DNA of 64,000 nt from Demequina sp. NBRC 110052. GTDB lineage: Bacteria > Actinomycetota > Actinomycetes > Actinomycetales > Demequinaceae. The notes beneath the pieces were generated by a model. It had not been told where the DNA came from. It made no database searches and saw only the letters and a list, made by a program, of their open reading frames with translations. Positions 24,185 through 40,104 of the stretch are shown here, piece by piece. Numbering within the stretch: position 1 is the stretch's first letter; the number at the start of each line of letters is the position of its first letter. The position numbers and the translations under genes were made by a program. The stretch spans positions 186,001-250,000 of the forward strand of contig NZ_BBRI01000003.1 of assembly GCF_002090075.1 (NCBI RefSeq). Reading direction: 5' to 3'.

Positions 24185-24190
24185 GCGAGC

Positions 24191-25141: not shown

Positions 25142-25724
25142 GGAACTCGCCTTCGGGTTCGCGGGCGCGGCGATCGCCGCACCGAACCTGGCGATGCGCG
25201 CGCTGACTTTCGGCGCCGTGCATCCCGTGGGCTCCCCCGAGCTCGACGCCGCCGACGCCGCGCTCGTGCTCGGCGCGCGCGTGTGGGAGGACGGCCGTCC
25301 GAGCAGGTTCCTGCGCGAGCGCGTAGAGACTGCGGCGACGTTGTATCACTCGGGGCTCGTGCCCACGCTGCTGATGTCAGGCGCGGGGAGCAACCGGGAG
25401 GGACTCGACGAGACCGCGTCGATGCGCCGCACCGCTCTCGAACTCGGTGTGCCCGAGTCGGCGATCATGCTCGACCCGCACGGAGTCAACACTTTCGCCT
25501 CGGCTTCGCACGCGTGCGAGGCCGATCTTGCGAGCGTGATCGTCTGCTCGCAGGAGTTCCACCTGCCGCGCGCGGTGTGGCTGTGCGGCCGCGCCGGGCT
25601 CGACGCGCAGGGTGCCTACCCTGCGATCTCGCTCAGGGAGCACACGGCGCTCGGCTACGCGCGTGAGACGGCCGCCTCGTGGAAGGCGCTGCTGGGCGAG
25701 GCGGGTGTGCTCGAGCGCTCCTGA
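25134..25724 (+). CDS. SanA/YdcF (DUF218) family protein, copy 1
   Basis: 196 residues, overlapping the previous gene by 8 nt. DUF218 signature: AADAALVLGARVWEDGRPSR, then SRFLRERVETAATLYHSG, LLMSGAGSNREG and IVCSQEFHLPRAVWLC. The N-terminus (LAFGFAGAAIAAPNLAMRAL) is a weak membrane anchor. SanA-like proteins influence envelope permeability and vancomycin sensitivity in enterobacteria, and ElyC/YdcF relatives act in envelope precursor metabolism; the reaction is not firmly known. A paralogue with the same core lies at 42749-43378. Confidence 0.88.
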   Translation: MRRELAFGFAGAAIAAPNLAMRALTFGAVHPVGSPELDAADAALVLGARVWEDGRPSRFLRERVETAATLYHSGLVPTLLMSGAGSNREGLDETASMRRTALELGVPESAIMLDPHGVNTFASASHACEADLASVIVCSQEFHLPRAVWLCGRAGLDAQGAYPAISLREHTALGYARETAASWKALLGEAGVLERS

Positions 25725-25739
25725 GCGGTGTGGAGTGAC

Positions 25740-26177
25740 TCAGGCCCGGTCGAGTCCGCTGTCGAGCACGCGGAGCAGCTCACGGAGCTGCTCGAGTTGG
25801 CCGTCGTCGAGCGCCGAGAGCTGCGTGCGCCGTGCCGATCGTGCGATGCCGGCGGCCTCCTCGGCGACCTCGTTTCCCTGATCGGTGAGGTACAGGCGCC
25901 GCACGCGGCGGTCGTCGGCGTCGAGTTCGCGGCGCACGAGGTCGCGCGCGACGAGTCGCTGAACCACTCCGGTGGCGACGGACGGCTGCACGCCGATCGC
26001 GTCCGCGAAGTCCGAGGTCGTGATGCCCGGCTCGACGTAGACGATAATGATTCCGCGGAACTGGTGGAGCGTGAGCCCCAGGCGTGCGACGGCGCCCACC
26101 TGGTTCGGCGACGAGCGGTGAAGGAAGCGCATGAACTCGGCCACCGTGGTGTCGAGCAGACTCTCGCGGTCCGTCAT
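25740..26177 (-). CDS. MarR-family regulator, copy A
   Basis: 145 residues from ATG 26177 (GAGGGCGAGG upstream). Winged helix: VARLGLTLHQFRGIIIVYVE, then recognition helix region IGVQPSVATGVVQRLVARDLV and wing RRELDADDRRVRRLYLTDQG. The C-terminal helix DGQLEQLRELLRVLD would form the dimer. It is clearly a paralogue of the MarR gene starting 47 nt upstream, with the block ATGVVQRL shared exactly. It reads into the 3' end of the SanA-like gene with a 15-nt gap. Ligand unknown; likely part of the control of the adjacent exporter. Confidence 0.9.
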   Translation of the reverse strand: MTDRESLLDTTVAEFMRFLHRSSPNQVGAVARLGLTLHQFRGIIIVYVEPGITTSDFADAIGVQPSVATGVVQRLVARDLVRRELDADDRRVRRLYLTDQGNEVAEEAAGIARSARRTQLSALDDGQLEQLRELLRVLDSGLDRA

Positions 26178-26223
26178 CAGCCTCGCCCTCTCATCGATTG
26201 CGCCCACTCTAGCGGCGGGATCG

Positions 26224-26685
26224 TCAATCTCCGGGTCGAATCGACGCGGCGATGGTCGCGAGCATGTCGGCCAGCTGTGCCAGCTGATCCTCACTCAGCA
26301 CATCGAGGTGGTCGACGAACTGCTGCTCTGCAGCGCCCGCGACGCTCTCCACGAACGCGGCGCCCTCGGGCGTGAGGGCGAGCCTGCGCACCCGGCCGTC
26401 GTGCGCGTCGGGCGTGCGAGCCAGCCATCCGCGCGCGGCGAGCCGCTGGACCACGCCGGTCGCGATGTTGGGCTTCATGCCGACTGCCTCGGCGACCTCC
26501 GCGGTGGGGCGACCCGGCACGGCGTGCACGTACAGCAACGTGTGCAGCTGCGCGACGGTAATGCCGCTGCTGAACAGCGACTCCGACTGCGGGCGCATCT
26601 GGGACATCACGAGCTCGCGCTGCAGCGCGGTGACGCGTGCGGTGAGCGCAGCCCTGGAGTCGTCCATAGAGCCGTAGCCTCCCAT
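26224..26685 (-). CDS. MarR-family regulator, copy B (local repressor of the exporter)
   Basis: 153 residues from ATG 26685, preceded by GGAGG; ATG 26667 is an alternative that also has GGGAGG in front. MarR fold: SGITVAQLHTLLYVHAVPG, recognition region VGMKPNIATGVVQRLAARGWL, wing RTPDAHDGRVRRLALTPEG and a dimer helix SEDQLAQLADMLATI. It is divergent from a DHA2 exporter with 105 bp between them; an inverted repeat lies in the spacer of the exporter's promoter. By analogy with MarR-exporter pairs it should repress both genes until a toxic ligand binds. Confidence 0.9.
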   Translation of the reverse strand: MGGYGSMDDSRAALTARVTALQRELVMSQMRPQSESLFSSGITVAQLHTLLYVHAVPGRPTAEVAEAVGMKPNIATGVVQRLAARGWLARTPDAHDGRVRRLALTPEGAAFVESVAGAAEQQFVDHLDVLSEDQLAQLADMLATIAASIRPGD

Positions 26686-26703
26686 GCCAGCACCGCCTCC
26701 GGG

Positions 26704-26732
26704 TTGTTGATTCGCCTCACACGAATTATATT
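26704..26732 (+). promoter_or_regulatory. exporter promoter with MarR-type operator and overlapping divergent -10
   Basis: Plus strand: TTGTTG (26704-26709), 17-bp spacer, TATATT (26727-26732). The spacer contains the inverted repeat ATTCG (26710-26714) / CGAAT (26722-26726), a fitting operator for a MarR dimer. Minus strand: a perfect TATAAT at 26730-26725 faces the regulator gene and overlaps the plus-strand -10 by four bases, so one site can fire in both directions and one bound repressor can shut both. Confidence 0.7.
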
Positions 26733-26790
26733 GGTGCACGCCCCGCAGACGTGGCCACCCCCTTCCCCGACGACCGACCCCGGAGGTCCC

Positions 26791-28455
26791 ATGTCAGCGT
26801 CCCCTGCCTCGCCCACTGACGCCACGCCGCGCGATGCCGCGCTCGATGACGCGCTCGCCGAGGGCATCAGCGCCGCCGTCTACCAGCGCCGCTGGGCGAT
26901 CCTCGCCACCCTGTGCCTGGGACTCATGACCGCGATGATCGCCAACATGAGCCTCAACCTCGCGCTGCCCGAGCTCGCGGTCGAGTTCTTCATGACGCAG
27001 CTGCAGCTCACCTGGGTGGTCGAGGCGTTCACCCTGGTCTTCGCCGCGCTGCTGTTCATCTCCGCCTCCATCGCGGACCGCTACGGCCGCAAGCGCGTCA
27101 TGCTCGTCGGGCTCGTCATCTTTGTGCTCGCGTCGCTGTACGCACCCTTCTTCGCCAGCACCGGCGGCGAGCTCATCGCCTCGCGCGCGCTCATGGGCAT
27201 CGGCGGCGCGCTCGTGATGCCGACGACGCTGTCACTCGTGAACGTCGTCTTCCCGTCCAAGGAGCGCCCGAAGGCGATCGCCATCTGGGCGGCCGTCTCC
27301 GGCGTCGGCATGATGATCGGCTCCGTGCTGACAGGCATCCTGCTGCACTTCTTCGACTGGCACTCGGCCTTCCTGCTAGGCGCCGTCTTCGGCGTGGTCG
27401 CGCTCGCCGTGACGTGGCTCATCGTGCCCGAGTCGGTGGATGAGAAGGCCACGCCCGTGGACTGGATCGGCGGACTGTTCATCACGCTCGCGCTGGCCGG
27501 CATCGTCTACACGATCATGGAGGCGCCGTCGCACGGCTTCGACGACACCCTCACGATCGTCGCCGCGGCCGTGGGCGCCGTTAGCCTCGCACTGTTCATC
27601 TGGTGGGAGCGCCGCGTCGCCGAGCCGATGCTCGACCTCACGCTGTTCGCTCGTTCGCGCTTCTCGCTCTCCGTCATCTCCGTCACGCTCACCTTCTTCG
27701 CGATGATGGGCGCCTTCTTCGGCATGACGCAGATCTTCCAGCTCGTCATGGGCTACGACGCGCTCACCACTGCCGTGGCCTTCATCCCGTCGATGCTGCC
27801 GATGATGTTCATCGGCCCGCTCATCCCCAAGTACTTGGAGCGCTTCGGCACCCGCTGGACGGTCATCCCCGGCCTGCTCATCATCGCGGGCGGGTTCCTG
27901 CTCATGACCACATGGCCCACGATCCCCTCGTACTGGGACTTCCTCCTCGCGATGTCGCTCGTGACGCTGGGCATGGCGATGGTCATGACCCCCGCGACCA
28001 ACATGCTGATGTCCTCGGTGCCGCGCAACCGCTCCGGCATGGGCTCCGCCATGAATGACACCACCCGCGAATTGGGCGCCTCGCTCGGCATCGCCGTGCT
28101 CGGCTCGCTCATCGCCAACCAGTACGCCGACAACATCGCCCCCACCGTCGCCGACCTGCCCGCCGAGGCTGCTGGCGCGGTGCAGGACTCCCTTGCCGGG
28201 GCCATCGCGGTCACCGACCAGCTCGCGCTGGCAGGGGGCGAGACGGCCGACGCGGCGGCACAGATCGCCTTCGCCGCTCAGACCGCGTTCATGGACGCCA
28301 ACCAGCACTCCATGCTGATCTCCGCGATCATCGCCATCGGCACGGCGCTGCTCATGCTCATCGCGCTGCCCCGCGGCGACAAGTCGCTCTCCGCCGAGCC
28401 CGGCACCGCGCCGGGCTTGGAGGAGGAACACGACGAGGCTGCCGTCGTCGACTAA
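26791..28455 (+). CDS. DHA2-family MFS drug exporter (14 TM)
   Basis: 554 residues from ATG 26791 behind CGGAGG. A hydrophilic 35-residue head precedes the first helix (ILATLCLGLMTAMIANMSLN). Motif A in the loop between helices 2 and 3 is ADRYGRKRVMLVG; helix 5 carries the exporter-type motif C region AAVSGVGMMIGSVLTGILLHF. About 14 hydrophobic segments place it with EmrB/QacA proton-coupled exporters. An acidic extension between the last helices (AVQDSLAGAIAVTDQLALAG) is typical of the family's extracytoplasmic loop. Regulated by the divergent MarR gene; substrate unknown. Confidence 0.93.
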   Translation: MSASPASPTDATPRDAALDDALAEGISAAVYQRRWAILATLCLGLMTAMIANMSLNLALPELAVEFFMTQLQLTWVVEAFTLVFAALLFISASIADRYGRKRVMLVGLVIFVLASLYAPFFASTGGELIASRALMGIGGALVMPTTLSLVNVVFPSKERPKAIAIWAAVSGVGMMIGSVLTGILLHFFDWHSAFLLGAVFGVVALAVTWLIVPESVDEKATPVDWIGGLFITLALAGIVYTIMEAPSHGFDDTLTIVAAAVGAVSLALFIWWERRVAEPMLDLTLFARSRFSLSVISVTLTFFAMMGAFFGMTQIFQLVMGYDALTTAVAFIPSMLPMMFIGPLIPKYLERFGTRWTVIPGLLIIAGGFLLMTTWPTIPSYWDFLLAMSLVTLGMAMVMTPATNMLMSSVPRNRSGMGSAMNDTTRELGASLGIAVLGSLIANQYADNIAPTVADLPAEAAGAVQDSLAGAIAVTDQLALAGGETADAAAQIAFAAQTAFMDANQHSMLISAIIAIGTALLMLIALPRGDKSLSAEPGTAPGLEEEHDEAAVVD

Positions 28456-28500
28456 GCCGGGCCACGGCGTCGGGCATGTGAGAACCTCGCCAGGCACGGC

Positions 28501-28506
28501 TAGGCT
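28501..28506 (+). promoter_or_regulatory. -10 box (leaderless) of maf
   Basis: TAGGCT ends 7 nt before the maf ATG; no Shine-Dalgarno in the 7-nt interval. Confidence 0.5.
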
Positions 28507-28513
28507 CGCGGCC

Positions 28514-29176
28514 ATGGCCGTGCCGCTCGTCCTCGCTTCCCAGTCCCCTGCCCGCCTGGCGACGCTCCGCTCCGCCGGAGTTGAGCCCCGCGTGATCGTC
28601 TCGCACGTGGATGAGGACGCAGTGCTCGCACGGGTGCGCGCCGACCACGCCGACGCCGGGCTCGGGGACCTCGCATTCGACGCCTCGGTGCTGGCCTTGG
28701 CTCGCGCCAAGGCGGAGGAGGTCGCGTCGTCTCACGACACGGGCGCGCTGGTGCTGGGCTGCGACTCGATGCTCGAGATCGACGGGCAGATCCTGGGCAA
28801 GCCGGGGGACGCGGCGACCGCACGCGAGCGCTGGCGGGCCATGCGCGGCCGCACCGGCGTGCTGCACACCGGCCACTGGCTCGTCGACGACCGTGAGAGT
28901 GGCTCCGGCGCGACGATCGGCGAGACCGCCTCGACTCTGGTGCGCTTCGCAGACCTGGGAGACGACGAGATCGATGCGTACGTGGCCACAGGCGAGCCGC
29001 TGAACGTCGCGGGTGCCTTCACCGTGGACTCGCTGGGTGGGCCGTACGTCGAGTCGATCGACGGAGACTTCCACGCCGTCGTGGGTGTGTCCCTGCCGCT
29101 GCTGCGTCACCTGCTGACCCCATGCGGCGTGCGCTTCCACGAGCTGTGGGAGCGCGATCAGGGCGCGAGTTTGTAG
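28514..29176 (+). CDS. maf: Maf-family nucleotide pyrophosphatase
   Basis: 220 residues from ATG 28514 (MAVPLVLASQSPARL). The LASQSPAR phosphate-binding motif opens the protein and GCDSMLEIDGQILGKP holds the catalytic Asp; ARERWRAMRGRTGVLHTGH follows. Maf/YhdE/YceF proteins hydrolyse non-canonical or specific NTPs (dTTP, UTP, m7GTP) to monophosphates and influence septation. In actinobacteria maf often stands next to acyl-CoA carboxylase genes, as here (the alpha subunit is downstream). Confidence 0.93.
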   Translation: MAVPLVLASQSPARLATLRSAGVEPRVIVSHVDEDAVLARVRADHADAGLGDLAFDASVLALARAKAEEVASSHDTGALVLGCDSMLEIDGQILGKPGDAATARERWRAMRGRTGVLHTGHWLVDDRESGSGATIGETASTLVRFADLGDDEIDAYVATGEPLNVAGAFTVDSLGGPYVESIDGDFHAVVGVSLPLLRHLLTPCGVRFHELWERDQGASL

Positions 29177-29334
29177 ATCGCCGACAACCTACGGCCCCGT
29201 ACGGTAAAGGCCAGCCAAAATCGTTGTCGGAATCCCACAACGCGTGGTGAGAGACCTTGGTCCCGCATCCAAACTTGCCCGGGGTACCCGGCACCGGCTA
29301 GGACTGCCGAGCCGCCGCACGCTAACGTGACTGC
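29177..29334. promoter_or_regulatory. 158-bp upstream region of carboxylase alpha gene
   Basis: Contains the inverted repeat CCGACAAC (29181-29188) / GTTGTCGG (29223-29230) enclosing GGCC-rich sequence, which could be the maf terminator or an operator. The leaderless -10 TAACGT lies at 29323-29328, 6 nt before GTG 29335. No biotin- or fatty-acid-type operator recognised. Confidence 0.45.
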
Positions 29335-31119
29335 GTGTCTGCCTTCTCCAGCGTCCTGATCGCCAACCGCGGCGAGATCGCGGTCCGCATCGTCCGCGCG
29401 TGCGCGGACGCCGGACTGAGGTCCATCGCCGTCTACGCCGACCCCGACCGCGACGCCCCGCACGTGTCCATGGCGGACGACGCGTACGCACTCGGCGGCG
29501 CGACCGCACGCCAGACCTATCTGGACATCGCCAAGATCATCGAGGTCGCCCAGCGCTCCGGCGCCGAGGCGGTGCACCCCGGCTACGGCTTCCTCGCAGA
29601 GAACTCGGACTTCGCCCGCGCAGTCATCGACGCAGGACTGATCTGGATCGGACCCTCCCCCGACGCGATCGACGCGCTGGGCGACAAGGTCTCGGCCCGC
29701 CACATCGCGCAGCGCGCAGGCGCACCGCTCGTGCCCGGCACCCCTGACCCCGTGGAGACGGCCGACGAGGTGGTCGCCTTCGCCGACGCGAATGGACTTC
29801 CGGTCGCCATCAAGGCGGCCTTCGGCGGTGGAGGACGCGGACTCAAGGTCGCCCGCACCCGCGAGGAGATCCCCGAACTGTTCGACTCCGCCACGCGCGA
29901 GGCCGTCGCAGCCTTCGGCCGCGGCGAGTGCTTCGTGGAACGCTTCCTCGACAAGCCCAGGCACGTCGAGACGCAGTGCCTCGCGGACGCACACGGCAAC
30001 GTCGTCGTCGTCTCGACGCGCGACTGCTCGCTCCAGCGCCGGCATCAGAAGCTCGTCGAGGAGGCCCCCGCGCCGTTCTTGACCGACGATCAGCGCGCGC
30101 GCCTCGTCGAATCGAGCCAGGCGATCCTGCGCGAGGCCAAGTACCTTGGCGCCGGCACGTGCGAGTTCCTCGTGGGCTCTGACGGCACCATCAGCTTCCT
30201 CGAGGTCAACACGCGCCTCCAGGTGGAGCACCCGGTGACCGAGGAGGTCACGGGCGTGGACCTGGTGCGCGAGCAGTTCCGCATCGCCGCGGGCGAGCCG
30301 ATCTCCGTGCTCGAGCCCGAGGTTCGCGGCCACTCGATCGAGTTCCGCATCAATGGCGAGGACCCGGCGGCAAACTTCATGCCCGCCCCCGGTCGGATCC
30401 ACCGGCTGCACTTCCCCTCGGGCCCCGGCGTCCGCGTGGACGCGGGAGTGCGTCAGGGCGACACCGTCTCCGGCAACTTCGACTCGATGATCGCCAAGGT
30501 CATCGTCACCGGCGCCACGCGCGAGCAGGCGCTGCAGCGTGCCCGCCGCGCGCTCGCCGAGATGAACGTCGAGGGCATCCCCACGGTGCTGCCCTTCCAC
30601 CGCGCAGTGCTCGGCTCCCCCGCCTACACGGCTGAGGACGGCACGTTCGGCGTGTACACGACGTGGATCGAGTCCGAGTTCGCCGAGACCGTCGCCTCGC
30701 TCGGCGGCGGCTCTACCGCCGCGAGCGACGAGGACGACGCCGCCACCGAGCGCGTGGTCGTCGAGGTGGGTGGCAAGCGCCTCGAGGTCGTCCTCCCCGC
30801 CTCCCTTGCACGGGCAGGCCGGGCTGCCGCGGCGTCGGGCGGGCCAGCCCGACGCTCGAGCCGGCGTGGCAACGGCGGTCCCGTCCGCACCACGAACGGC
30901 ACCACGCTCACCTCCCCCATGCAGGGCACGATCGTCAAGGTCGCCGTCGAGGACGGCGCGACCGTCGCCGAGGGAGACCTCGTGGTGGTCCTCGAGGCGA
31001 TGAAGATGGAGCAGCCGCTCATCGCGCACAAGGCAGGCGTCATCACGGGACTCGCCGCCGCCGTCGGTGCGGGCGTCTCGGCGGGCACAGTCATCTGCGA
31101 CATCGCCGACGCTTCGTAG
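29335..31119 (+). CDS. acyl-CoA carboxylase alpha subunit (biotin carboxylase + BCCP)
   Basis: 594 residues from GTG 29335. Biotin carboxylase domain first: [31 protein letters not shown], the ATP-grasp glycine loop [51 protein letters not shown] and VEHPVTEE with active-site Glu/Arg. A linker rich in Ala/Arg/Ser (residues ~500-520) leads to the biotinyl domain, where [11 protein letters not shown] carries the biotinylated Lys. Typical AccA3/PccA layout of actinobacteria. It pairs with the beta and epsilon subunits at 22345-24173 and is modified by the birA product. No Shine-Dalgarno; a -10 hexamer 6 nt upstream suggests a leaderless mRNA. Confidence 0.95.
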
Positions 31120-31190
31120 CCTCCCGACGTGGGTGCTCGGTCGCCGCGGGGTGACGGGGTGGTGTTTGTCACTTCCTGAACCGTCTTCCA

Positions 31191-31220
31191 TTGACGTGGT
31201 GAGGTTGCCGGGAATACGTT
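31191..31220 (+). promoter_or_regulatory. candidate promoter of the S/L array
   Basis: TTGACG (31191-31196) and TACGTT (31215-31220) with an 18-bp spacer; transcription would begin about 31227, 15 nt before the first GTG of S1. Confidence 0.5.
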
Positions 31221-31241
31221 GCGAGCACATTCGTCGGCTTT

Positions 31242-31864
31242 GTGCCGAAGAGCCAGTTCGCCGGGGGGCGCGTGGTGGGTGCTTTACAGGGGGTTTCTGC
31301 GTCGGTACTGCTGGCGCTGGTTGCGATGTTCGCGACGCCTGTCGCGGCGGCCGCGGCGGGTGAGAGTCCGCAGATCGTGTCGTTCTCGCCTGCGACTGCA
31401 CCGCACAAGGCGACGTCACTATAGAGCGCGAAACGATGAATCCTACGGGCGGCGACGTGCTCTTCGATTATGCGCTCGACTTCGACATGCCACCCAACGT
31501 CTTCAACGAGTCGATCACCTGGCACTCCACTACCGGGGCCGTGCCCGCATACATCGCACACCTCAGCAACAACGGATTCCACTCCGGCGATCCACTGGCA
31601 CAAGTCGACGACATCGGTGAACCCGTCGAACTCGACACCACCAACGGCCCTGACGACCAAGGCACGATGGCACTGCTCAATCTCGGCGAACTCGCCGTCG
31701 GACAATCCGTGGCATTCACGCTCTACATCGGCCTCGCGCCAAACAGTGAGACTGCCGAACTCGCCCTCCACGACATCGAACACGCCATCTCAGCACAAGC
31801 CACCAGCGGAGACACCATCGGACTGTTCGCCATCGGAACACCCACCTACCAACCCACACCGTAA
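31242..31864 (+). pseudogene. S1: secreted protein of unknown family, interrupted by a frameshift
   Basis: Two frames make one protein. From GTG 31242 the first frame gives a signal peptide (VSASVLLALVAMFATPVAAAAA) and the mature start GESPQIVSFSPATAPHK, then runs into a stop at 31422-31424. The second frame is open before 31436 and continues directly as GDVTIERETMNPTGGDVLFDYALDFDMPPNV, so restoring one base near 31403-31407 yields an uninterrupted ~207-residue secreted protein ending YQPTP. Mature part is acidic, Cys-free and beta-like (VGQSVAFTLYIGLAPN). I know no family for it. A copy lacking the 5' third follows at 32390. It may be decayed, phase-variable or a sequencing error. Confidence 0.6.
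31517..31861 (+). repeat. direct repeat, copy 1 (inside S1)
   Basis: 345 bp that align without a gap to 32396-32740 at a constant offset of 879 bp. I count 18 mismatches, about 95% identity, so the duplication is recent or kept homogeneous. Confidence 0.9.
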
Positions 31865-31880
31865 AAATGAGAGAGTCACC

Positions 31881-32351
31881 ATGAACACAGTCCAAGTCAG
31901 TTCGGCGGGTCACGGCAACTCCCGGTCATCTGGCGAGACGACCACGAAAGACTCAGCGGTTCCTGACATCACAGACAGCCCCCAAACCCCACGCAGGAAG
32001 CGCTTTCGCGGCCCAACTCAGACGCTCACCACGACCGCAGTCCTCACCATGCTGCTCAGCGGGTGCGTCTTCGCCATCGATCCGGCACACCCGACCGCCA
32101 CGTTCGTGAACGATACCGCCGAGTCGCTGACGTTCACGATCGAGTACGACGGCGAAACTCGCGAAGCAGTGCTACTCGTCGTGAGCCCATATTCCGAGCA
32201 GTTCACATCGATAGATGACTGCATTGGTGACAGGATCCGGGTCGAGAGCGAGGACGGCAAGGTCGTCGGCACGACAGATGGGCCGGCGTGCGCAGGTTGG
32301 CAGTTGACTGTCAGCGAAGACGGAACGCTTACCTACGAGGACAAGAGCTAG
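31881..32351 (+). CDS. L1: lipoprotein of unknown family with long N-terminal leader
   Basis: 156 residues, starting 16 nt after S1 with GAGAG as a ribosome-binding site. About 40 hydrophilic residues (Ser/Thr/Pro-rich, ending in the basic PRRKRFRG) precede the hydrophobic core TLTTTAVLTMLLSG and lipobox LLSGC, so the signal peptide is unusually late. The mature ~90 residues start CVFAIDPAHPTATFVND and contain FTIEYDG, IRVESEDGKVVG, two Cys (DDCIGD and PACAGW) likely to form a disulfide, and the end LTYEDKS. Homologues follow at 32760 and 33485. Small beta-sandwich-like surface lipoprotein; function unknown. Confidence 0.72.
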   Translation: MNTVQVSSAGHGNSRSSGETTTKDSAVPDITDSPQTPRRKRFRGPTQTLTTTAVLTMLLSGCVFAIDPAHPTATFVNDTAESLTFTIEYDGETREAVLLVVSPYSEQFTSIDDCIGDRIRVESEDGKVVGTTDGPACAGWQLTVSEDGTLTYEDKS

Positions 32352-32389
32352 GCCCCGTTCATGCGAGGCCACGAATGCGATCAAGCACG

Positions 32390-32749
32390 TCGACTACCTG
32401 GCACTCCACCACCGGAGCCGTGCCCGCATACATCGCACACCTCAGCAACAACGGATTCCACTCCGGCGATCCGCTGGCAGAGGTCGACGACATCGGTGAA
32501 CCCGTCGAACTCGACACCACTTGCGGCCCTGACGACCAAGGCACGATGGCACGACTCAACCTCGGCTCACTCGCCGTCGGACAATCCGTGGCATTCACGC
32601 TCTACATCGGCCTCGCGCCAAACGGTGAGACTGCCGAACTCGCCCTCCACGACATCGAACACGTCGTCTCAGCACAAGCCACCAGCGGCGACACCATCGG
32701 ACTGTTCGCCATCGGAACACCCACCTACCAGCCCACACCGTCCAACTGA
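32390..32749 (+). pseudogene. S2: 5'-truncated copy of the secreted protein gene
   Basis: From about 32390 the sequence matches the last two thirds of S1 (TWHSTTGAVPAYIAHLSN through TYQPTP) but the promoter, signal peptide and first ~75 mature residues are absent; the sequence before the junction is the tail of L1 and a ~38-bp linker. A longer open frame reaches back into L1 in another register and encodes no plausible start. The remaining frame is intact and contains one Cys not in S1 (TTCGPDD). Probably a duplication remnant that still lies directly before L2. Confidence 0.7.
32396..32740 (+). repeat. direct repeat, copy 2 (inside S2)
   Basis: Partner of 31517-31861, ungapped, about 95% identical. 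The left junction falls inside the codons for ITWHST, where the flanking TCGA(T/C) trinucleotide context is still similar. Confidence 0.9.
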
Positions 32750-32759
32750 AGGAGGCGGG

Positions 32760-33245
32760 ATGCATCAGCCCGAGCCAGAGATATCGGCCATGCCTGGGAC
32801 CGGACGTCAGCACAGTGCACTACGAGACCGACCGGCGCGGCCAGACACCGGCGACGCACTGCGCAACACCATGCGAACCACCACGACCCGCCCATCACAG
32901 CGCCGGCTCATCCACACACTGACAACCGCAGCGATCACCGCACTCACTCTCACCGGCTGCGTCTTCGCCATCGACCCCCCGCACCCCACTGTCGAATTCT
33001 TCAACGATTCCAATCAGACAGTGATCTTCACGGTCGAGTACAACGACGGAGGCCCAGACGCCAAAGCTGTGGTCGTCGAGCCGCACTTGGTGGGCTCCTC
33101 CTCGGTAGACGTGTGCACCGGTCAGAGCATCCGCGTGGAAACCGAGACCGGCGAGGTCCTGGGGCGGACAACCGAACCTGCCTGCCCGAACTGGCTACTG
33201 ACGGTCCACGAAGACGGAACGCTCACGTACGAGGACAAGAGTTAG
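32760..33245 (+). CDS. L2: lipoprotein paralogue with long leader
   Basis: 161 residues from ATG 32760, fixed by a strong AAGGAGG 4 nt upstream, which shows that the long hydrophilic leader is real and not a start-site error. Leader: MHQPEPEISAMPG through TTTTRPSQRR, then core TLTTAAITALT and lipobox LTGC. Mature part CVFAIDPPHPTVEFFND, FTVEYND, IRVETETGEVLG, two Cys in VCTGQ and ACPNW, and the same C-terminal LTYEDKS as L1. Spaced 11 nt after the truncated S2. Same unknown family as L1; mature identity looks around 55-60% by eye. Confidence 0.8.
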   Translation: MHQPEPEISAMPGTGRQHSALRDRPARPDTGDALRNTMRTTTTRPSQRRLIHTLTTAAITALTLTGCVFAIDPPHPTVEFFNDSNQTVIFTVEYNDGGPDAKAVVVEPHLVGSSSVDVCTGQSIRVETETGEVLGRTTEPACPNWLLTVHEDGTLTYEDKS

Positions 33246-33305
33246 GTGCCATGCGCGCGAGACCGTGAACACAATCAGTCACGTCGACCAACTGACATGG
33301 CCACC

Positions 33306-33488
33306 ATGAACACAGTCCCAGTCAGTTCGGCGGGCAACGGCGCCTCCCGGTCATCTGGTGCGCCGACCACCGCCCGGCATGCCGCGTCGGCACGTCGTGC
33401 ATCGCCGCACCATTTCCGCATGTGCGCGCTCGCTACCAAAGCAACGATCGACCTGGAGCCCCACATAGACGAAAGGACCAGATCATGA
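33306..33488 (+). CDS. 60-codon frame derived from a lipoprotein leader, coupled to L3
   Basis: ATG 33306 opens MNTVPVSSAGNGASRSSG, nearly the same as the first residues of L1; 33302-33370 aligns to 31877-31945 with about 8 mismatches and no gap. After ~25 residues the similarity ends, and the frame continues to a TGA overlapping the L3 ATG (ATGA). It has no hydrophobic core. Either a remnant of a third S/L unit or a small coupled leader peptide for L3. Confidence 0.4.
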   Translation: MNTVPVSSAGNGASRSSGAPTTARHAASARRASPHHFRMCALATKATIDLEPHIDERTRS

Positions 33489-33889
33489 CCGCACGATCAG
33501 CACGGTCGAACAGCGGAAAGCCGTGGTCGCGAGCGAAGGGAACGAAGGTCAAGAAGGCACTTCCCGCGGCCGCATTCATCGGCACATTGACTGTCGCACT
33601 CACGGGCTGCCTGGTCAACTACGACTCCGCCAAACCAGAGATGACGATTTCGAACGAATACAGCGAAGACGTTGTTGTCTGGGTCGGGAACGGTTCGCGA
33701 GAGGAGGACACGCCGCTAGAGGCGGGTGATGCCACCGTCATTCTCGTACCGAACTGCGTGGGCAGCGAAATCCGAGTGGAGACCACTTCAGGCGAAGTAC
33801 TCGACAGACTCGAGGAGCGGGCCTGCCCGAACTGGGTGCTGACGATCACAGAGGCGGGCGAACTCGAATACACCGAACTCGACAACTAG
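33485..33889 (+). CDS. L3: divergent lipoprotein paralogue
   Basis: 134 residues from ATG 33485 with AAAGGA 7 nt upstream. Shorter leader (MTARSARSNSGKPWSRAKG), core AAAFIGTLTVAL, lipobox LTGC, then CLVNYDSAKPEMTISNEYSED. It keeps the family pattern: a charged strand (VVVWVGNGSRE), first Cys in PNCVGSEIRVET, GEVLDRL, second Cys in ACPNWVLTI, and an acidic end EYTELDN. More diverged than L1 and L2 are from each other, so it is probably the oldest copy. It closes the array; the iron-uptake promoter begins 67 nt later. Confidence 0.78.
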   Translation: MTARSARSNSGKPWSRAKGTKVKKALPAAAFIGTLTVALTGCLVNYDSAKPEMTISNEYSEDVVVWVGNGSREEDTPLEAGDATVILVPNCVGSEIRVETTSGEVLDRLEERACPNWVLTITEAGELEYTELDN

Positions 33890-33956
33890 CTAGCGGCGAG
33901 GCCACCCGGCCCCACCGTCGGGCCTATCTATTACGCAACAGTCATGTTGCGGAAGT

Positions 33957-33986
33957 TTGACACGCAACCTCGGACACCCCTACGCT
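33957..33986 (+). promoter_or_regulatory. efeUOB promoter
   Basis: TTGACA (33957-33962) and TACGCT (33981-33986) with an 18-bp spacer. Transcription would start near 33993, just before the palindromic operator. Confidence 0.65.
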
Positions 33987-33996
33987 CGCCGCAGTG

Positions 33997-34014
33997 GGTA
34001 AGGCACGCCTTACC
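33997..34014. promoter_or_regulatory. DtxR/IdeR-like iron box
   Basis: GGTAAGGC-AC-GCCTTACC is a perfect 8-bp-arm palindrome resembling the TTAGGTTAGGCTAACCTAA-type DtxR/IdeR site. It overlaps the predicted transcription start of efeU, so iron-loaded repressor would block initiation. Confidence 0.7.
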
Positions 34015-34040
34015 ATTTTCCGCCGCGCAAGGAGCCGCCT

Positions 34041-34898
34041 GTGTTCGCCAACTTCCTCATCGGACTGCGTGAGGGCCTCGAGGCCTCGCTGATCGTCGGC
34101 ATCCTCGTCGCGTATCTGGTGCGGATCGAGCGCCGCGATCTGCTGGTGCAGGTGTGGCTCGGCGTCGGCATTGCGATCGCAGTCTCGCTCGGTTTCGGAG
34201 CGCTGCTCACGCTCGGCCCGCAAGGGCTCAGCTTCGAGGCGCAGGAGATCATCGGCGGCTCGCTCAGCATCGTCGCCGTGGGGCTCATCACCTGGATGAT
34301 CTTCTGGATGGGCAAGACCGCGCGCCACCTGCGCGGGCACCTCGAAGGAAGCATGGACAAGGCCATCGCCGTCGGTAAGGGAGCCGTCATCGCGATGGCG
34401 CTGCTCGCCGTGGGCCGCGAAGGACTCGAGACCTCGCTGTTCCTCTGGGCTGGCATCCAGTCCGCGGGCTCGTCTACCGCGCCGATTCTGGGCGCCACGC
34501 TCGGCCTCGCCGTAGCGATCGTGCTCGGCTGGGTCGTGTACCGCGGCGCCGCGCGCATCAACCTGCGCGTCTTCTTCCAGTGGACCGGGGTGTTCCTCAT
34601 CATCGTGGCCGGCGGCGTCCTCGCGTACGGCGTGCACGACCTCCAGGAGGCCGGCGTGCTGCCTGGCCTGAACACCCTCGCCTTCGACGTCAGCGGCACG
34701 ATCACCTCCGACTCGGTGCTGGGCACCGTGCTCAAGGGCGTCTTCAACTTCTCCCCCGCGACCACCGTGCTCGAGGCCGTGGCGTGGGTCCTCTACGTCG
34801 TTCCCGTCATGTGGCTGTTCGTGCGCACCGCCTTCCGCGGCGCTCCGAAGCCCGCCGGCGCCCCGCGCGTCACCGAGACCGCCGCGACCGCGGCCTGA
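34041..34898 (+). CDS. efeU: EfeU ferrous iron permease (FTR1 family)
   Basis: 285 residues from GTG 34041 with AAGGAG 6 nt upstream. Seven hydrophobic segments with the two iron-coordinating REXXE motifs: REGLEAS in helix 1 and REGLETS in helix 4. C-terminal tail is short and Ala/Thr-rich. EfeU is the oxidase-independent member of the FTR1 family that moves iron across the membrane, partnered by periplasmic-side EfeO and the peroxidase EfeB, both encoded next with 22- and 11-nt gaps. Expected to be iron-repressed through the palindrome at 33997. Confidence 0.95.
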   Translation: MFANFLIGLREGLEASLIVGILVAYLVRIERRDLLVQVWLGVGIAIAVSLGFGALLTLGPQGLSFEAQEIIGGSLSIVAVGLITWMIFWMGKTARHLRGHLEGSMDKAIAVGKGAVIAMALLAVGREGLETSLFLWAGIQSAGSSTAPILGATLGLAVAIVLGWVVYRGAARINLRVFFQWTGVFLIIVAGGVLAYGVHDLQEAGVLPGLNTLAFDVSGTITSDSVLGTVLKGVFNFSPATTVLEAVAWVLYVVPVMWLFVRTAFRGAPKPAGAPRVTETAATAA

Positions 34899-34920
34899 TC
34901 ACCGAAGGACTCCTCTCCGC

Positions 34921-36081
34921 ATGAACGCCCGCTTCGCTCTGCCCTCGCTCGTCCTCACCGGCGCCGTCATCGCCCTCGCTGGCTGCGTGCCCAACACACC
35001 GGCCGGCGCGGACGCCGTCGCTGTCACCGCGACCGACGAGGGCTGCACGCTCTCCGCCGTCGAGGCGCCTGCGGGCACCCTGGTGTTCTCGGTGTCCAAC
35101 GAGGGTTCGTCCGCGACTGAGTTCTACCTGCTCGCCTCGGATGGTTCGTCGATCGTCTCCGAGGTCGAGAACATCGGCCCCGGGCTCACACGCGATCTCA
35201 CCGTGCAGGTCGCTGCGGGTGACTACTTCACGTCGTGCCGCGAGTCGGATACCGCCGACGCGGTCCCCGCTGCCTTCACCGTCACCGAAGCCACCGGCGA
35301 GGTGGAGGTCGACGAGGAGCGCCAGGCGCTGCTCGACCAGGCAGCCGCCACGTACAAGGCGTACGTGCAGCAGGAGGTCGCGGCACTCGTCACCGCCACC
35401 GACGAGTTCGTCGCCGCCTTCGTGGCCGGCGACGACGACGCGGCGCGCGACATCTACGCCTCCGCACGCTCCCACTGGGAGGCGATCGAGCCCGTCGCCG
35501 AGTCCTTTGGCGACCTCGACCCCTCGATGGACTTGCGCGAGGCCGACCTCGCCGAGGGCGAGGAGTGGACCGGCTGGCACGCCATGGAGAAGGACCTGTG
35601 GCAGCCCGCCGACTACACGCCCCTCACCGTCGACGAGCGCACCGCCCTTGCCGAGCGCCTGGTCGCCGACACCGCCGAGCTCTCTACCCGCGTGAACGCG
35701 GACGACTTCACCTTCGAGGCCTTCCAGATCGGCAACGGAGCCAAGGAGCTGCTCGACGAGGTCGCGACCGGCAAGATCACCGGCGAGGAGGAGATCTGGT
35801 CCGGCACCGACCTGTGGGACTTCCGCGCCAACCTCGACGGCGCCCACGAGGCCTTCATCGTCCTCAAGCCCGCCGCCGACCTCACCGACACAGACCTGAG
35901 CACCGAGATCGAGGAGCGTTTCGCCGCGCTCGATGCCGAGCTCGCGCAGTACGGCTCGCTCGAGGCCGGCTTCCTCACCTACTCGGAGCTGACCGAGGAC
36001 CAGGTGCTCGAACTCTCCCGCCTCGTCGAGGCGCTCAGCGAGTCACTCTCGCAGCTCACCGCCGCCGCAGTCGCCGCCTGA
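34921..36081 (+). CDS. efeO: EfeO iron-uptake lipoprotein (cupredoxin + M75 domain)
   Basis: 386 residues. Lipoprotein signal with lipobox ALAGC (Cys ~22). Residues ~30-120 form a cupredoxin-like domain (VTATDEGCTLSAVEAPAG, VQVAAGDYFTSC); from ~130 the imelysin/M75 helical domain follows, with the metal motif HxxE in GWHAMEKDLW and a second face in VATGKITGEEEIW. EfeO binds ferrous/ferric iron outside the membrane and delivers it to EfeU. This is the long two-domain form that pairs with EfeB and EfeU. Confidence 0.94.
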   Translation: MNARFALPSLVLTGAVIALAGCVPNTPAGADAVAVTATDEGCTLSAVEAPAGTLVFSVSNEGSSATEFYLLASDGSSIVSEVENIGPGLTRDLTVQVAAGDYFTSCRESDTADAVPAAFTVTEATGEVEVDEERQALLDQAAATYKAYVQQEVAALVTATDEFVAAFVAGDDDAARDIYASARSHWEAIEPVAESFGDLDPSMDLREADLAEGEEWTGWHAMEKDLWQPADYTPLTVDERTALAERLVADTAELSTRVNADDFTFEAFQIGNGAKELLDEVATGKITGEEEIWSGTDLWDFRANLDGAHEAFIVLKPAADLTDTDLSTEIEERFAALDAELAQYGSLEAGFLTYSELTEDQVLELSRLVEALSESLSQLTAAAVAA

Positions 36082-36092
36082 GAGCGACCCTC

Positions 36093-37436
36093 ATGAACGA
36101 CACCTCCTCGCCCGAGCACGGCGCGACAGCCCCGACGTCCCAGCAGCCCGACGCTGGGGAGACTCGTCGCGGGCCGTCACGGCGCGCCGTGCTCGGCGGG
36201 GCGGGCGTCGTCGCCGGAGCGGCGGCGCTCGCAGGCGGCGGGTTCGCTGCCGGGCGCGCGACGGCGTCGCCCATGCAGTTGCGCCAGTACGACTTCTTCG
36301 GCGAGCACCAGAGCGGCATCGTCACGCCCGCGCAGGACCGCATGCATTTCGCGGCCTTCGACGTCACCACGTCCGACCGTGACGCGCTGATCGGGCTGCT
36401 ACGCGCGTGGTCGGAGGCGGCCGCGACGCTGATGTCCGGCTCTGAGCTCGGCACGGGCATTGCCGGCGGCTCCCCCCTCGCCCCGCCCGAGGACACGGGC
36501 GATGCCACCGGGCTCCCCGCGTCGGGCCTCACCATCACGTTCGGGTTCGGGCCCGGCTTGTTCGTCAAGGACGGCGTGGACAGGTTCGGCCTCGCCGGCC
36601 GCCGGCCAGCCGCGCTGATCGATCTGCCGCACTTCCCCGGCGACACTCTCCAGGACCGCCTCACCGGAGGTGACCTGTGCATCCAGGCGTGCGCCGACGA
36701 CCCGCAGGTGGCGATGCACGCGATCCGGAACCTCTCGCGTCTCGCCTTCGGCGTCGCGTCGGTGCGGTGGGCGCAGCTCGGCTTCGGCCGCACCTCGTCG
36801 ACGACGCGCGAGCAGACCACGCCGCGGAACCTCATGGGCTTCAAGGACGGCACCCGCAACCTCAAGGCCGAGGACACGGAGAACGTCCGCGAGTGGCTGT
36901 GGGCCGACGCCTCAGACGGCGCCGACTGGATGGCGGGCGGCACGTACCTCGTGGCCCGCAAGCTGCGCATCCTCGCCGAGATCTGGGACCGCGCGTCGCT
37001 GTCCGAGCAGGAGGCGCTCGTCGGACGCACCAAGGGATCCGGCGCGCCGCTGTCTGGCGGAAACGAGTTCACCGACCCCGACTTCACGCGACCGGGAGCG
37101 GACGGCAGCCCGCTCATCCCCACCGATTCGCACGTGGCGCTCGCGCACCCGAGCGCGAACGGCGGCGCGATGATGCTGAGGCGCGGCTACAACTACACGG
37201 ACGGCGCCGACGACCTGGGCCGGCTGGACGCGGGCCTCTTCTTCCTGGCCTTCGTGCGCGACCCCGAGACGCAGTTCGTCCCGATGCAGACGGCGATCTC
37301 GTCGTCCGACGCGATGACAGTCGAGTACGTGCGTGCAGTGGGTTCGGCGCTCTTCGCGGTGCCACCAGGGGTTCCTGCGGGTGCGACGCTCGACGGTTCC
37401 GACGGTGCCTACATCGGACAGGGCTTGTTCACCTGA
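36093..37436 (+). CDS. efeB: EfeB Dyp-type heme peroxidase, Tat-exported
   Basis: 447 residues from ATG 36093. Twin-arginine signal: RRGPSRRAVLGGAGVVAGAAALAGGG, ending near residue 55. Dyp peroxidase marks: GFKDGTRN (the GXXDG distal motif), proximal heme His in DSHVALAHPS, and the Arg in MMLRRGYNY. EfeB oxidises ferrous iron or takes iron from heme at the cell surface and works with EfeO/EfeU. Export would use the Tat system; tatB is at the end of this window. No cofactor-binding residue appears missing. Confidence 0.95.
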   Translation: MNDTSSPEHGATAPTSQQPDAGETRRGPSRRAVLGGAGVVAGAAALAGGGFAAGRATASPMQLRQYDFFGEHQSGIVTPAQDRMHFAAFDVTTSDRDALIGLLRAWSEAAATLMSGSELGTGIAGGSPLAPPEDTGDATGLPASGLTITFGFGPGLFVKDGVDRFGLAGRRPAALIDLPHFPGDTLQDRLTGGDLCIQACADDPQVAMHAIRNLSRLAFGVASVRWAQLGFGRTSSTTREQTTPRNLMGFKDGTRNLKAEDTENVREWLWADASDGADWMAGGTYLVARKLRILAEIWDRASLSEQEALVGRTKGSGAPLSGGNEFTDPDFTRPGADGSPLIPTDSHVALAHPSANGGAMMLRRGYNYTDGADDLGRLDAGLFFLAFVRDPETQFVPMQTAISSSDAMTVEYVRAVGSALFAVPPGVPAGATLDGSDGAYIGQGLFT

Positions 37437-37595
37437 GACGCGCCATCGGGCGCGGTCGCCGCGCCTCGGCCCCACAGTCGACCATCCGTCGGCGTCGCTC
37501 GCGTACGCTCGTGGTGCGGTGACAATGGCCCCTCGCCGGAAGCGTCGGGCGGATCAGGTGTCCCGCTCGCACGATCGTGAGGGAGGCATGCCCCG

Positions 37596-38591
37596 GTGAG
37601 CGACCTCGAAACCCGACCGCAAGAGTCCGTGCTCGAACAAGGTCAACCGTGCGCCGGGGTCGAAGTGCTGGAACCTCGCGAGGTGCCTCTCGGCGGCCCA
37701 CGCGCCATGACCGTCTACCGGACGCTTCCCCAGAAGCAGCGCTCCCTCGTCGGCGCCTGGTGCTTCCTCGACCACTACGGCCCTGACGACGTCGCCGGGT
37801 CCGGCGGCATGGTGGTGCCGCGCCACCCGCATACGGGCCTCGCGACGGTGAGCTGGCTGTTCACCGGCGGGATCGACCACCTCGACTCGGGCGGCAACGC
37901 CGCACGCGTGCGGCCAGGCGAGCTCAACCTCATGATCGCGGGCCGCGGCATCACTCACTCCGAGATCAGCACGGCGAGCACAAGCGTGCTGCACGGTGTC
38001 CAACTGTGGTTCGCGCTACCTGAGAGCACCCGGTTCAGCGAGAACCAGTTCCTCCACCACGTTCCCGAGCCGGTCACTGCTCCAGGCGTGACCGCCCGAG
38101 TCTTCATCGGCGAGCTGCTCGGATCGTCCTCGCCCGTCGAGACGAGGACGCCAGACCTACTCGGAGCTGAACTGCTCGTGGAGCCGGGCGCCACCGCGGT
38201 CCTCCCCGTGCGCGCCGACTTCGAGCATGCGCTGCTGGCCGAGAACGCCCACATCGACGTCAACGGCACCGCGGTCGAACACCGCTCGCTGGCCTACGTG
38301 CCCACAGGGTCGGACACGATCCACGTCACCGCCGGACCGCGCGGCGCGCGCGTCATCCTCCTGGGCGGCGTCCCGCTGGGCGAGCGCATCGTCATGTGGT
38401 GGAACTTCGTGGGACGCGACCACGACGAGATCGTCGAGTTCCGGCGGCGGTATCAGGCCGAGCTCGGCTTCGAGCCGGCGGACCCCGCGGACGAGGGCAA
38501 GCCCCCACTGTTCGGGAGTTTCCCGCCGGGCGAGCTTGCGCCTCTGCCCGCGCCGACCCTGCCTCCGCTGCGGCTCCGGCCTCGCGCCTGA
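37596..38591 (+). CDS. pirin family protein
   Basis: 331 residues from GTG 37596 (GGGAGG about 11 nt upstream). Bicupin fold. N-terminal cupin metal motif: RHPHTGLATVSWLFTGGIDHLDS with the metal His residues and the later Glu in GRGITHSEIS; typical pirin segments LVGAWCFLDHYGP and NLMIAGRGITHSE. C-terminal cupin: LLEVEPGA-like (LLVEPGATAVLPV) and ILLGGVPLGERIVMWWNFVGR. Pirins act as quercetinase-like dioxygenases or redox-sensing cofactors; the role here is unknown. Convergent with the flavoprotein gene, 12 nt apart. Confidence 0.92.
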   Translation: MSDLETRPQESVLEQGQPCAGVEVLEPREVPLGGPRAMTVYRTLPQKQRSLVGAWCFLDHYGPDDVAGSGGMVVPRHPHTGLATVSWLFTGGIDHLDSGGNAARVRPGELNLMIAGRGITHSEISTASTSVLHGVQLWFALPESTRFSENQFLHHVPEPVTAPGVTARVFIGELLGSSSPVETRTPDLLGAELLVEPGATAVLPVRADFEHALLAENAHIDVNGTAVEHRSLAYVPTGSDTIHVTAGPRGARVILLGGVPLGERIVMWWNFVGRDHDEIVEFRRRYQAELGFEPADPADEGKPPLFGSFPPGELAPLPAPTLPPLRLRPRA

Positions 38592-38603
38592 ACTCGCGAC
38601 CCG

Positions 38604-39989
38604 CTAGACGCCCTGAGGATCGCTCTCGCGGATGCCGTGCAGTCGCCGTGCGACCTCGCCCGTGGTGCCGGACAGCGAGGGATACACCGTGAAGGCGTCG
38701 GCCACCTGATCCACGGTGAGGTGGTTCGCCACGGCGAGAGAGAGCGCGAAGATGTGCTCGGAGGCCCGCGAGCCGACGATGACGGCGCCCAGCACCAGCC
38801 CGGTGACCGTGTGGCCGAAGATCTTGACGAAGCCCTGGTCGATTCCGAGCATCTTGGCGCGCGGGTTGCGCGCGAGATCCAACCGCTCCACGCGATAGAA
38901 GATGCCGCGCTCGCGCAGCTCCGCCTCCGACGCGCCCACCGTCGCGATCTCCGGCGCGGTGAACACCGTCGAGGACACCGTCGCAAGCTCCAGCGGGTGC
39001 ACCGCGTCGCCCAGCACGTGCGCCATCGCGATGCGCCCCTGCGAGGCCGCGACCGACGCGAGCGGCAGGACTCCTGTGCAGTCGCCGGCCGCATAGACGC
39101 CGGCCACGCTGGTGCGCGACACCCTGTCGACCTTGATGTAGCCGCGCTCGTCGAGCGCGATGCCCGCCTCTTCGAGCCCCAGACCCTCGGTGTTCGGGAT
39201 CGAGCCGACTGCCATGAGCACATGGCTGCCCGCCACCTCGCGGCCGTCCTCGAGCGTGACCACCACACCGTCACCTTCGCGACGTGCTGCCGCCGCCCGA
39301 CCACCGACGAGCGTCATGCCGCGGTCCTTGAACACCTGGGTGAGCATCGCCGACGCCTCGGGGTCCTCACGCGGCAGCACCCGGTCGTGTGACGCGATCA
39401 GCGTGACCTCGGAGCCCAGCAGCCGGTACGCGCCCGCGAACTCCGCGCCCGTCACACCCGAACCCACCACGATGAGGTGCTCGGGCAGCTCCTCAAGCGT
39501 GTAGAGGTCGTTCCAGCTGAGGATGCGTTCGCCGTCGGGCATGGCTGAATCAAGCACGCGGGGGCGCGCGCCGAGCGCGAGGAGGACAGCGTCGGCCGTG
39601 ATCTCCTCATCCCCTACCGCCAGGGTGAGCGGCCCCACGAGACGGCCCTCACCACGGACGACGCGCACGCCCTCGCCGGTCACCCGCGCTTCGATGTCGC
39701 CGCTCTGGCGCTCCACGAGAGACTTCACGCGCGCGTTGACGGCACCGAGGTCCACGCGAAGGCTCGCCGGCCCCGCGTCGCCGACGATGCCGAGCTCCGG
39801 TGCGCGCTCCGCGATGGTGCGCCATTCCGCGGTCGCGATGACCGTCTTGGACGGCACGACGTCCGTCAGCACCGCGTTGCCACCCAGCCCGTGCCGCTCG
39901 ATCAGCGTCACCTGGGCGCCGGCCTTGCGCGCCACCAGTGCCGCCTCGTAGCCGCCGGGTCCGCCGCCGAGGATCACCACATGGGTCAT
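38604..39989 (-). CDS. LpdA-type flavoprotein (NAD(P)H:quinone reductase-like, no redox disulfide)
   Basis: 461 residues from ATG 39989. Pyridine nucleotide-disulfide reductase fold: FAD site ILGGGPGGYEAAL at the N-terminus, NAD(P) site VVGSGVTGAEFAGAY in the middle, second FAD motif GVYAAGDCTG and a dimerisation domain at the end. The position that holds the CxxxxC redox pair in lipoamide dehydrogenase reads GGNAVLTDVVPSKT, with both Cys absent. This is the arrangement of mycobacterial LpdA (Rv3303c), which reduces quinones with NAD(P)H, so dihydrolipoamide activity is unlikely. Alternative start ATG 39995 would add only MA. Confidence 0.92.
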   Translation of the reverse strand: MTHVVILGGGPGGYEAALVARKAGAQVTLIERHGLGGNAVLTDVVPSKTVIATAEWRTIAERAPELGIVGDAGPASLRVDLGAVNARVKSLVERQSGDIEARVTGEGVRVVRGEGRLVGPLTLAVGDEEITADAVLLALGARPRVLDSAMPDGERILSWNDLYTLEELPEHLIVVGSGVTGAEFAGAYRLLGSEVTLIASHDRVLPREDPEASAMLTQVFKDRGMTLVGGRAAAARREGDGVVVTLEDGREVAGSHVLMAVGSIPNTEGLGLEEAGIALDERGYIKVDRVSRTSVAGVYAAGDCTGVLPLASVAASQGRIAMAHVLGDAVHPLELATVSSTVFTAPEIATVGASEAELRERGIFYRVERLDLARNPRAKMLGIDQGFVKIFGHTVTGLVLGAVIVGSRASEHIFALSLAVANHLTVDQVADAFTVYPSLSGTTGEVARRLHGIRESDPQGV

Positions 39990-40091
39990 GCCCGCCATCG
40001 TTCCACACGGACGCCACATGCCCGACGCCGTGGCCGGGTTCGCGCCTTGTCCCCGCCGCTGCCGCGCGCGGCGGACCCCGCTTGGCCCGGA

Positions 40092-40097
40092 TAGGCT
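40092..40097 (+). promoter_or_regulatory. -10 box of purine nucleoside phosphorylase gene
   Basis: TAGGCT ends 7 nt before ATG 40105. The 7 nt contain GGAGG, but too close to the start to be an efficient Shine-Dalgarno, so leaderless initiation is more likely. Confidence 0.5.
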
Positions 40098-40104
40098 CGG
40101 AGGC

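Follow-up and report, generated by a model that had tools for sequence, protein, structure and literature searches.

Relic of a protease–lipoprotein gene pair in a Demequina genome, with a candidate immunity role for the lipoprotein

The window analysed here, a 64,000-nucleotide stretch of Demequina sp. NBRC 110052 (contig NZ_BBRI01000003.1, positions 186,001 to 250,000; contig 3 of a 2.6-Mb, five-contig genome), carries at 31120..33928 an inserted block that we hold with great confidence to be the relic of a gene pair, made up of a secreted protease and an adjoining lipoprotein, L, and probably acquired by horizontal transfer. The block comprises, in this order and on the plus strand, S1, L1, S2, L2, a leader remnant and L3, as an earlier note made from the sequence alone had recorded. 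That note took S to be a small secreted protein of its own, a view that is not supported, the S pieces mapping instead onto the ends of a putative giant metalloprotease. On balance we lean towards an explanation of the whole in which the pair was acquired, the protease gene collapsed, and the L proteins, which would inhibit their cognate protease, were kept.

The origin of S emerged when 59 genomes, including that of the window, were searched with the S1 3′ fragment (31436..31864); one strong relative was returned, inside a 1,918-codon open frame of a genome of the same genus (G001). The gene concerned (L016:3632-9325) is intact and encodes a secreted protein of 1,897 amino acids (aa) carrying both ends of S1: an N-terminal signal peptide with an ESPQIVSxSPATA stretch as in S1, and the S domain at its end. 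The S1 5′ fragment (31242..31424) comprises a signal peptide and ESPQIVSFSPATA and is out of frame thereafter, the intact G001 counterpart starting ...ESPQIVSLSPATAVAGSVV. The upstream region together with the 5′ end of the former protease gene (31159..31399, covering the signal peptide and first mature residues) aligns with the start of the intact gene (L016 ~3643-3879) at 76% DNA identity over 241 columns, and the 3′ fragment, corresponding to the C-terminal domain, is 46% identical to the G001 C-terminus. By this comparison S1 retains about 55 N-terminal codons and has lost some 1,650 from its interior, corresponding approximately to residues 84 to 1,740 in G001 numbering. Its two ends do stand in different frames, as the earlier note had it, and the damage goes well beyond a frameshift to the loss of nearly the whole middle. 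Because both pieces map onto one G001 gene with a catalytic motif between them, we take S1 to be the two ends of a giant secreted, putative metalloprotease of gluzincin type. S2 (32389..32749) is a second copy of the 3′ end only, covering its last 350 bases, with neither leader nor catalytic part; the blocks 31517-31861 and 32396-32740 align ungapped with 327 of 345 bases identical (94.8%), in agreement with the earlier figure of about 95%. The synonymous divergence (dS) between S1 and S2 is 0.11, and the ratio of nonsynonymous to synonymous divergence (dN/dS) is 0.32 from 18 differences, too few to place the divergence of the S ends before or after inactivation. In one alignment (A7) the aligner set both window S rows in the wrong place. 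No credible family for the window S pieces came from Pfam, NCBIfam, PADLOC or PHROGs, and a weak S match in G009 (E 0.0018) was dropped as it falls in an unrelated 389-aa frame.

The middle of the intact G001 protein contains PPC-like repeats (Pfam PF04151, E 1.5e-4, just below cut-off), stretches that we read as immunoglobulin (Ig)-like, and a catalytic region holding HEYFHMVQYQYF...WWMEATAEWAAH, with the motif HEYFH...WWMEATAEWA. The gluzincin signature, HExxH with a downstream Glu, is thus present in G001, and the matching motif occurs in the other four rows of the catalytic alignment A3. The nearest named family is NCBIfam NF045524 (MXAN_6640 putative metalloprotease), which aligns over the HExxH region (131-163 model positions) of three relatives at E 6.7e-15, the value for G001, to 2.9e-21. 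Their scores of 55.6 (G001), 61.6 (G403) and 76.5 bits (G308) all fall below the curated cut-off of 140 and so outside membership; the region matched is absent from the window S fragments. The fold was assessed on a Hamadaea relative rather than on G001 itself: its AlphaFold2 model (region 1-350) has a gluzincin fold, aligning to lugdulysin, of peptidase family M30, with Z 17.7 and a root-mean-square deviation of 4.8 over 285 residues (VIA), and to M1 aminopeptidases with Z ~15. Foldseek places M9 collagenase peptidase domains first for the same model, and a sequence-profile search with the protease profile matched no solved chain. The catalytic part of the Hamadaea protein was modelled, while its S domain has a predicted local distance difference test score (pLDDT) under 50. 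The locus itself (Hamadaea tsunoensis, L042:2955-10079) encodes a 2,374-aa protease that includes the S domain; after it comes an L-like protein, seemingly anchored by a membrane helix and without a lipobox.

No protease of this kind appears to be left in the window genome. There, a query made of the catalytic and C-terminal parts of G001 recovers the two S pieces only, both in the query's C-terminal part, although it does reach class-level relatives at 1e-18 to 1e-38; the A3 catalytic profile likewise finds zero matches in the whole genome (G000), its match to G001 being a match to one of its own rows.

The three L genes are all open. L1 (31881..32351) encodes 156 aa with lipobox LLSGC and is mature from 32064; L2 (32760..33245, with an alternative shorter start at 32871) has lipobox LTGC (LTLTGC) and is mature from 32958; L3 (33485..33889), with lipobox LTGC (VALTGC), is the nearest to the L adjoining the intact G001 protease, at 52% aa identity. 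Between L2 and L3 lies the remnant of an L1-type leader (33290..33370), 84% identical to 31865-31945 of L1. By inspection, each L carries a lipobox with its lipid-attachment Cys after a signal peptide and is thus a predicted lipoprotein, each has two further Cys, and LTYEDKS terminates L1 and L2; these shared features, listed in the earlier note, hold, and the AIDPxHPT-like start that it assigned to all three does not extend to L3, which begins NYDSAKPE. In the mature part of L, 18 relatives share an invariant Asn, two invariant Cys and an invariant Gly, and a Trp is almost always present; dN/dS among L1, L2 and L3 is 0.29-0.45. The AlphaFold2 model of mature L2 (pLDDT 87.9) is a beta-sandwich of eight strands, whose best fold matches are the HGSNAT and PepT ectodomains, AlgF, VHL and transthyretin, at Z 6.4-9.2; the serralysin inhibitor (Inh) fold is not among the matches listed, an absence that is uninformative. 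In sequence searches L found no credible family in Pfam, NCBIfam, PADLOC or PHROGs, the 18 L proteins found no inhibitor family in Pfam and NCBIfam at E 0.1, and among solved structures only designed Ig proteins were matched (1e-6 to 0.025), the next matches lying above E 1. A match of L2 to TraN (Pfam, E 0.0055, below cut-off) and two of L3 to PHROGs families of unknown function (E 0.085-0.089) were set aside. L belongs to a family of small beta-sandwich lipoproteins of the Cys2 type that these libraries do not name. In the partners from Hamadaea and A. kijaniata an N-terminal membrane helix, on our reading of the sequences, replaces the lipobox, so that envelope anchoring is apparently kept by another means. 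The earlier note had allowed that S and L might prove to be well-known families; for S this holds weakly, through sub-threshold similarity to a named putative family, and for L it does not hold.

Adjacency of protease and L, the gene-order relationship that the note had proposed for comparison in related genomes, recurs well beyond the window. In G001 the L gene lies 130 bases downstream of the intact protease. Among 44 genomes of the genus, L occurs in four and the protease or its remains in two, both with an adjoining L. In a sample of 394 genomes of the class, the G001 protease query matched six, namely the window genome, four of family f35 (G142, G268, G308 and G403) and, more weakly, G238; each of the four strong f35 matches has an adjoining L-like lipoprotein. 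A catalytic-domain search of named genomes gave 120 confirmed loci, of which the best 80 were taken, 27 actinobacterial by title and 53 other. L lies within ~1.2 kb of the protease in 12 of the 27, and a wider profile adds Hamadaea to make 13, whereas none of the 53 non-actinobacterial loci among these best 80 has an L at E 1e-3. The 13 loci span five families (Cellulosimicrobium, Hamadaea, two Actinomadura, two Nocardiopsis, Microbispora, Acrocarpospora, Planobispora, Planomonospora, Sphaerimonospora and two Nonomuraea), and to them are added G001 and G403 as further cases of a partner next to the protease. The two surveys overlap, L050, L053 and L081 being, judged by length, the same contigs as G142, G308 and G268. 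A first-round profile of L, built from sequences of the window, G001, G019, G034, G403, G268 and G308, detected L at nine loci at E <= 1e-3, seven of them outside its own rows. L mostly follows the protease, but it lies upstream of it in L041 and L053 and is divergently oriented in L056; two open L copies stand beside one protease in L051 and L056. In the former, from Actinomadura litoris (L051:9212-9987), two tandem and very different L-type proteins follow a short protease of 596 aa. Our literature search, which was not exhaustive, found nothing on such a protease–L pairing.

Protease and L also diverge together. When the label "L next door" is mapped onto a 33-row protease tree it needs four changes, whereas shuffled labels need 10.8 on average, a pattern that we would read as one gain of L followed by later losses; this tree predates detection of the Hamadaea L, and Hamadaea was scored in it as lacking one. 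Protease and L distances over 14 pairs correlate with a Mantel r of 0.849 (0 of 5000 permutations), using one of the two L copies for L051 and L056 and the G308 and G268 sequences for L053 and L081.

What L does for the protease is the point on which explanations part. One possibility, which we consider unlikely yet the foremost of the alternatives, is that L serves the protease specifically in folding, export or docking, for instance as a lipoprotein foldase or a surface receptor, and that lone L genes are leftovers. Adjacency and co-divergence fit such a partner just as well as they fit an inhibitor; the distribution of L where the protease is broken or missing speaks against it. The wide L profile matches 13 of the 394 class genomes, three of these weakly and partially (G242, G332 and G379, over 33-35 profile positions, which were left out of locus inspection). 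Of the 12 L-bearing class genomes apart from the window's, four have the protease, as a check of 15 chosen genomes showed. At ten places across eight genomes L is either solitary or accompanied only by protease scraps (three in G073, and one each in G195, G214, G324, G348, G142 contig 11, G019 and G034), with an open frame at every one. Outside the genus, eight such places were inspected in six f35 genomes, and all eight frames span the conserved domain; the one in-match TAG in G073, G348 and G034 lies, in the translations, at the end of that domain. Protease scraps adjoin three lone L genes, with 317 aa at 64% identity (L147), ~36 aa (L146) and 72-109 aligned residues (L149), and the surroundings of the L genes in L148, L150, L151, L152 and L153 revealed none; within the genus, G019 and G034 have a lone L and no catalytic domain. 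Lone L genes, some next to protease scraps, thus recur in Streptosporangiaceae, and the window, where the protease has collapsed and three L genes remain, exemplifies a state found in other genomes too. In G073 and G214, which share the genus label of G142, a Microbispora, near-identical lone L genes (L147, L149 and L152) precede similar DNA, two of the three with protease scraps in front, which may mean that the relic was itself duplicated or relocated.

That S decays while L stays open, as the earlier note had seen, is therefore borne out, and its proposal of an immunity-like L is the best reading of the evidence. An inhibitor or immunity protein fits better than a chaperone because L is tethered, stays adjacent through rearrangement, is at times doubled, and remains open where the protease has been lost or is absent; a chaperone should vanish with its client, and 14 of the 27 actinobacterial relatives seemingly manage without L. 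A second alternative, that L has a protease-independent role, in substrate binding or envelope stress for example, and merely hitch-hikes with the protease, draws on the lone L genes of G019, G034, G195, G324, G348 and G142 contig 11, near which no trace of a protease was found. We regard it as improbable: although no more than 13 of 394 class genomes have an L, it adjoins the protease in the four strong protease genomes besides the window's, and its adjacency survives changed gene order, whether downstream, upstream or divergent. Taken by itself, the proposition that L is an inhibitor or immunity protein for its cognate protease stands, in our estimate, at about an even chance.

Several observations weigh against that proposition or soften its support. 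Even the wider profile detects no L at E 1e-3 in 14 of the 27 actinobacterial loci (eight Micromonospora/Actinoplanes, two Yinghuangia, three Nocardioides and one Nocardiopsis), and G238, a weaker protease match (E 1.2e-6, in a 731-aa frame) that we did not count as a pair, has no L either; L is therefore not needed by every member of the protease group. The L profile behind the 12 loci was partly trained on those loci, and the Mantel agreement is in part shared genome descent. The L fold is a common beta-sandwich whose best match, at Z 9.2, is to unrelated ectodomains, with no telling hit. Next to the Microbispora protease (L050, G142) a second L gene is split across two frames, a decay that would suit a folding or docking partner, and some of the lone L genes may likewise be awaiting loss. 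As a separate observation, the Micromonospora/Actinoplanes protease clade (L043-L049 and L069) has no detectable L partner.

The history of the block can be read from its surroundings. It lies between the stop of a biotin carboxylase gene (29335-31119) and the conserved promoter (~33929) of efeU (34041-34898), both genes being named from our reading of their translations. We compared the 26 of 44 genus genomes, the window's included, that have an efeU match at E 1e-30, leaving the other 18 aside. The biotin carboxylase lies just upstream of efeU in all 25 others, with a gap of 96-346 bases in 24 and unresolved in one, against 2,921 in the window genome. As the 25 other genomes are without the block at this site, it is an insertion in the window genome. 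Its GC content is 59-65% in 500-base windows (0.61 in the S1 region, 0.605 in L1, 0.63 in L2 and 0.595 in L3) versus 65-75% in the profiled flanks (24000-31000 and 34250-42000) and 0.692 for the whole window; the drop that the earlier note had noticed is real, its estimate of 57-60% being slightly low. The G001 copy sits elsewhere in its genome and is also low in GC (protease 64%, L 60%, flanks 71-72%), which at a different site fits transfer of the pair as a unit, and we infer that protease and L probably travelled together.

The earlier note's recent duplication stands for the S ends and fails for the S–L unit. L1 and L2 differ by a dS of ~1.2 and L3 is more distant (NG86 counting, near saturation), and the L tree joins L3 to the L of G001 (92/75) and L1/L2 to that of G019 (90/61). 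Set against the dS of 0.11 between S1 and S2, these distances and groupings show that the L set predates the latest copying of S and that the array did not arise by a single recent duplication. The same evidence bears on the view that S and L form an independent, expanding secreted system of two components, which the S–L order and the two near-identical S ends would suit. We give it very little credence, since the strong S homologues are C-terminal parts of large proteases (G001, G403 and Hamadaea), S1 is out of frame, S2 lacks a leader, and the L copies are old. The observation that the note reported is thus confirmed, and its interpretation, taken as a whole, is partly supported.

We picture the acquired module as a giant secreted zinc metalloprotease, with a signal peptide, PPC/Ig-like repeats, a gluzincin catalytic domain and a C-terminal S domain, together with a membrane-anchored L. 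Most likely, L would bind its cognate protease at the cell surface and block cleavage, sparing the producer's own envelope proteins. In the window genome the protease gene has collapsed through the large out-of-frame internal deletion preserved in S1, its 3′ end being copied later to give S2, and L would have been retained because it may still shield the cell from the proteases of neighbouring cells. Extended to the whole group, this would make L a new family of membrane-tethered inhibitors that confer immunity to one protease clade, the giant secreted gluzincins of Actinomycetota, with lone arrays kept against the proteases of competitors, a generalization that we offer tentatively and think somewhat doubtful in its full breadth. 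An unannotated lipoprotein family hereby gains a candidate partner and a testable function, the data point to an actinobacterial subfamily of large putative metalloproteases that fall under the cut-off of the nearest named model, and a partner gene that stays open at several places after decay or absence of its protease is the pattern expected of immunity genes.

A scan of the block for sigma-70-type promoters gave zero sites, and two terminator-like sites were found 3′ of L3, against 1.9 expected by the scan. The efeU promoter region beyond the block (33929-34040) is partially conserved across the genus (ATTACGCAAC... and GAAGTTTGACA) and includes GGTAAGGCACGCCTTACC, which we take to resemble an iron box of the DtxR/IdeR type.

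Among known systems, contact-dependent and polymorphic toxin systems possess orphan immunity genes that outlast their harmful partner, often in arrays. The window shares with these the retention of a protective partner, as we read L, after loss of the harmful one, and differs in that no toxin system, delivery machinery or antagonism is shown at the locus. With the MXAN_6640 family (NF045524), on which our non-exhaustive literature search found no paper by name, the present proteases share the aligning HExxH catalytic region and differ from it in their scores (55.6-76.5 bits against the cut-off of 140) and in that many of the actinobacterial ones have an L partner. Lugdulysin (M30, PDB 7bb8) is the nearest solved fold to the catalytic model (Z 17.7 over 285 residues), at 12% identity and with no sequence-profile match of the protease to it or to any other solved chain. 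The closest functional parallels are AprA–AprI, in which AprI is a periplasmic inhibitor thought to protect the cell (PMC4070987), and Mep72–BamI, in which BamI, encoded by the adjoining gene, relieves Mep72 toxicity in E. coli (PMC4334185). Both combine a secreted metalloprotease with a small partner encoded alongside, as seen here. Their proteases are metzincins, whereas ours is a predicted gluzincin; L, a proposed inhibitor, matches no inhibitor family by sequence and is lipid- or helix-anchored in a Gram-positive lineage. By analogy, we propose that L would block its protease at the envelope, the role thought likely for the periplasmic inhibitors of serralysin-type proteases, and the system as a whole is a variant on a kind already known, that of a protease with an adjacent envelope partner.

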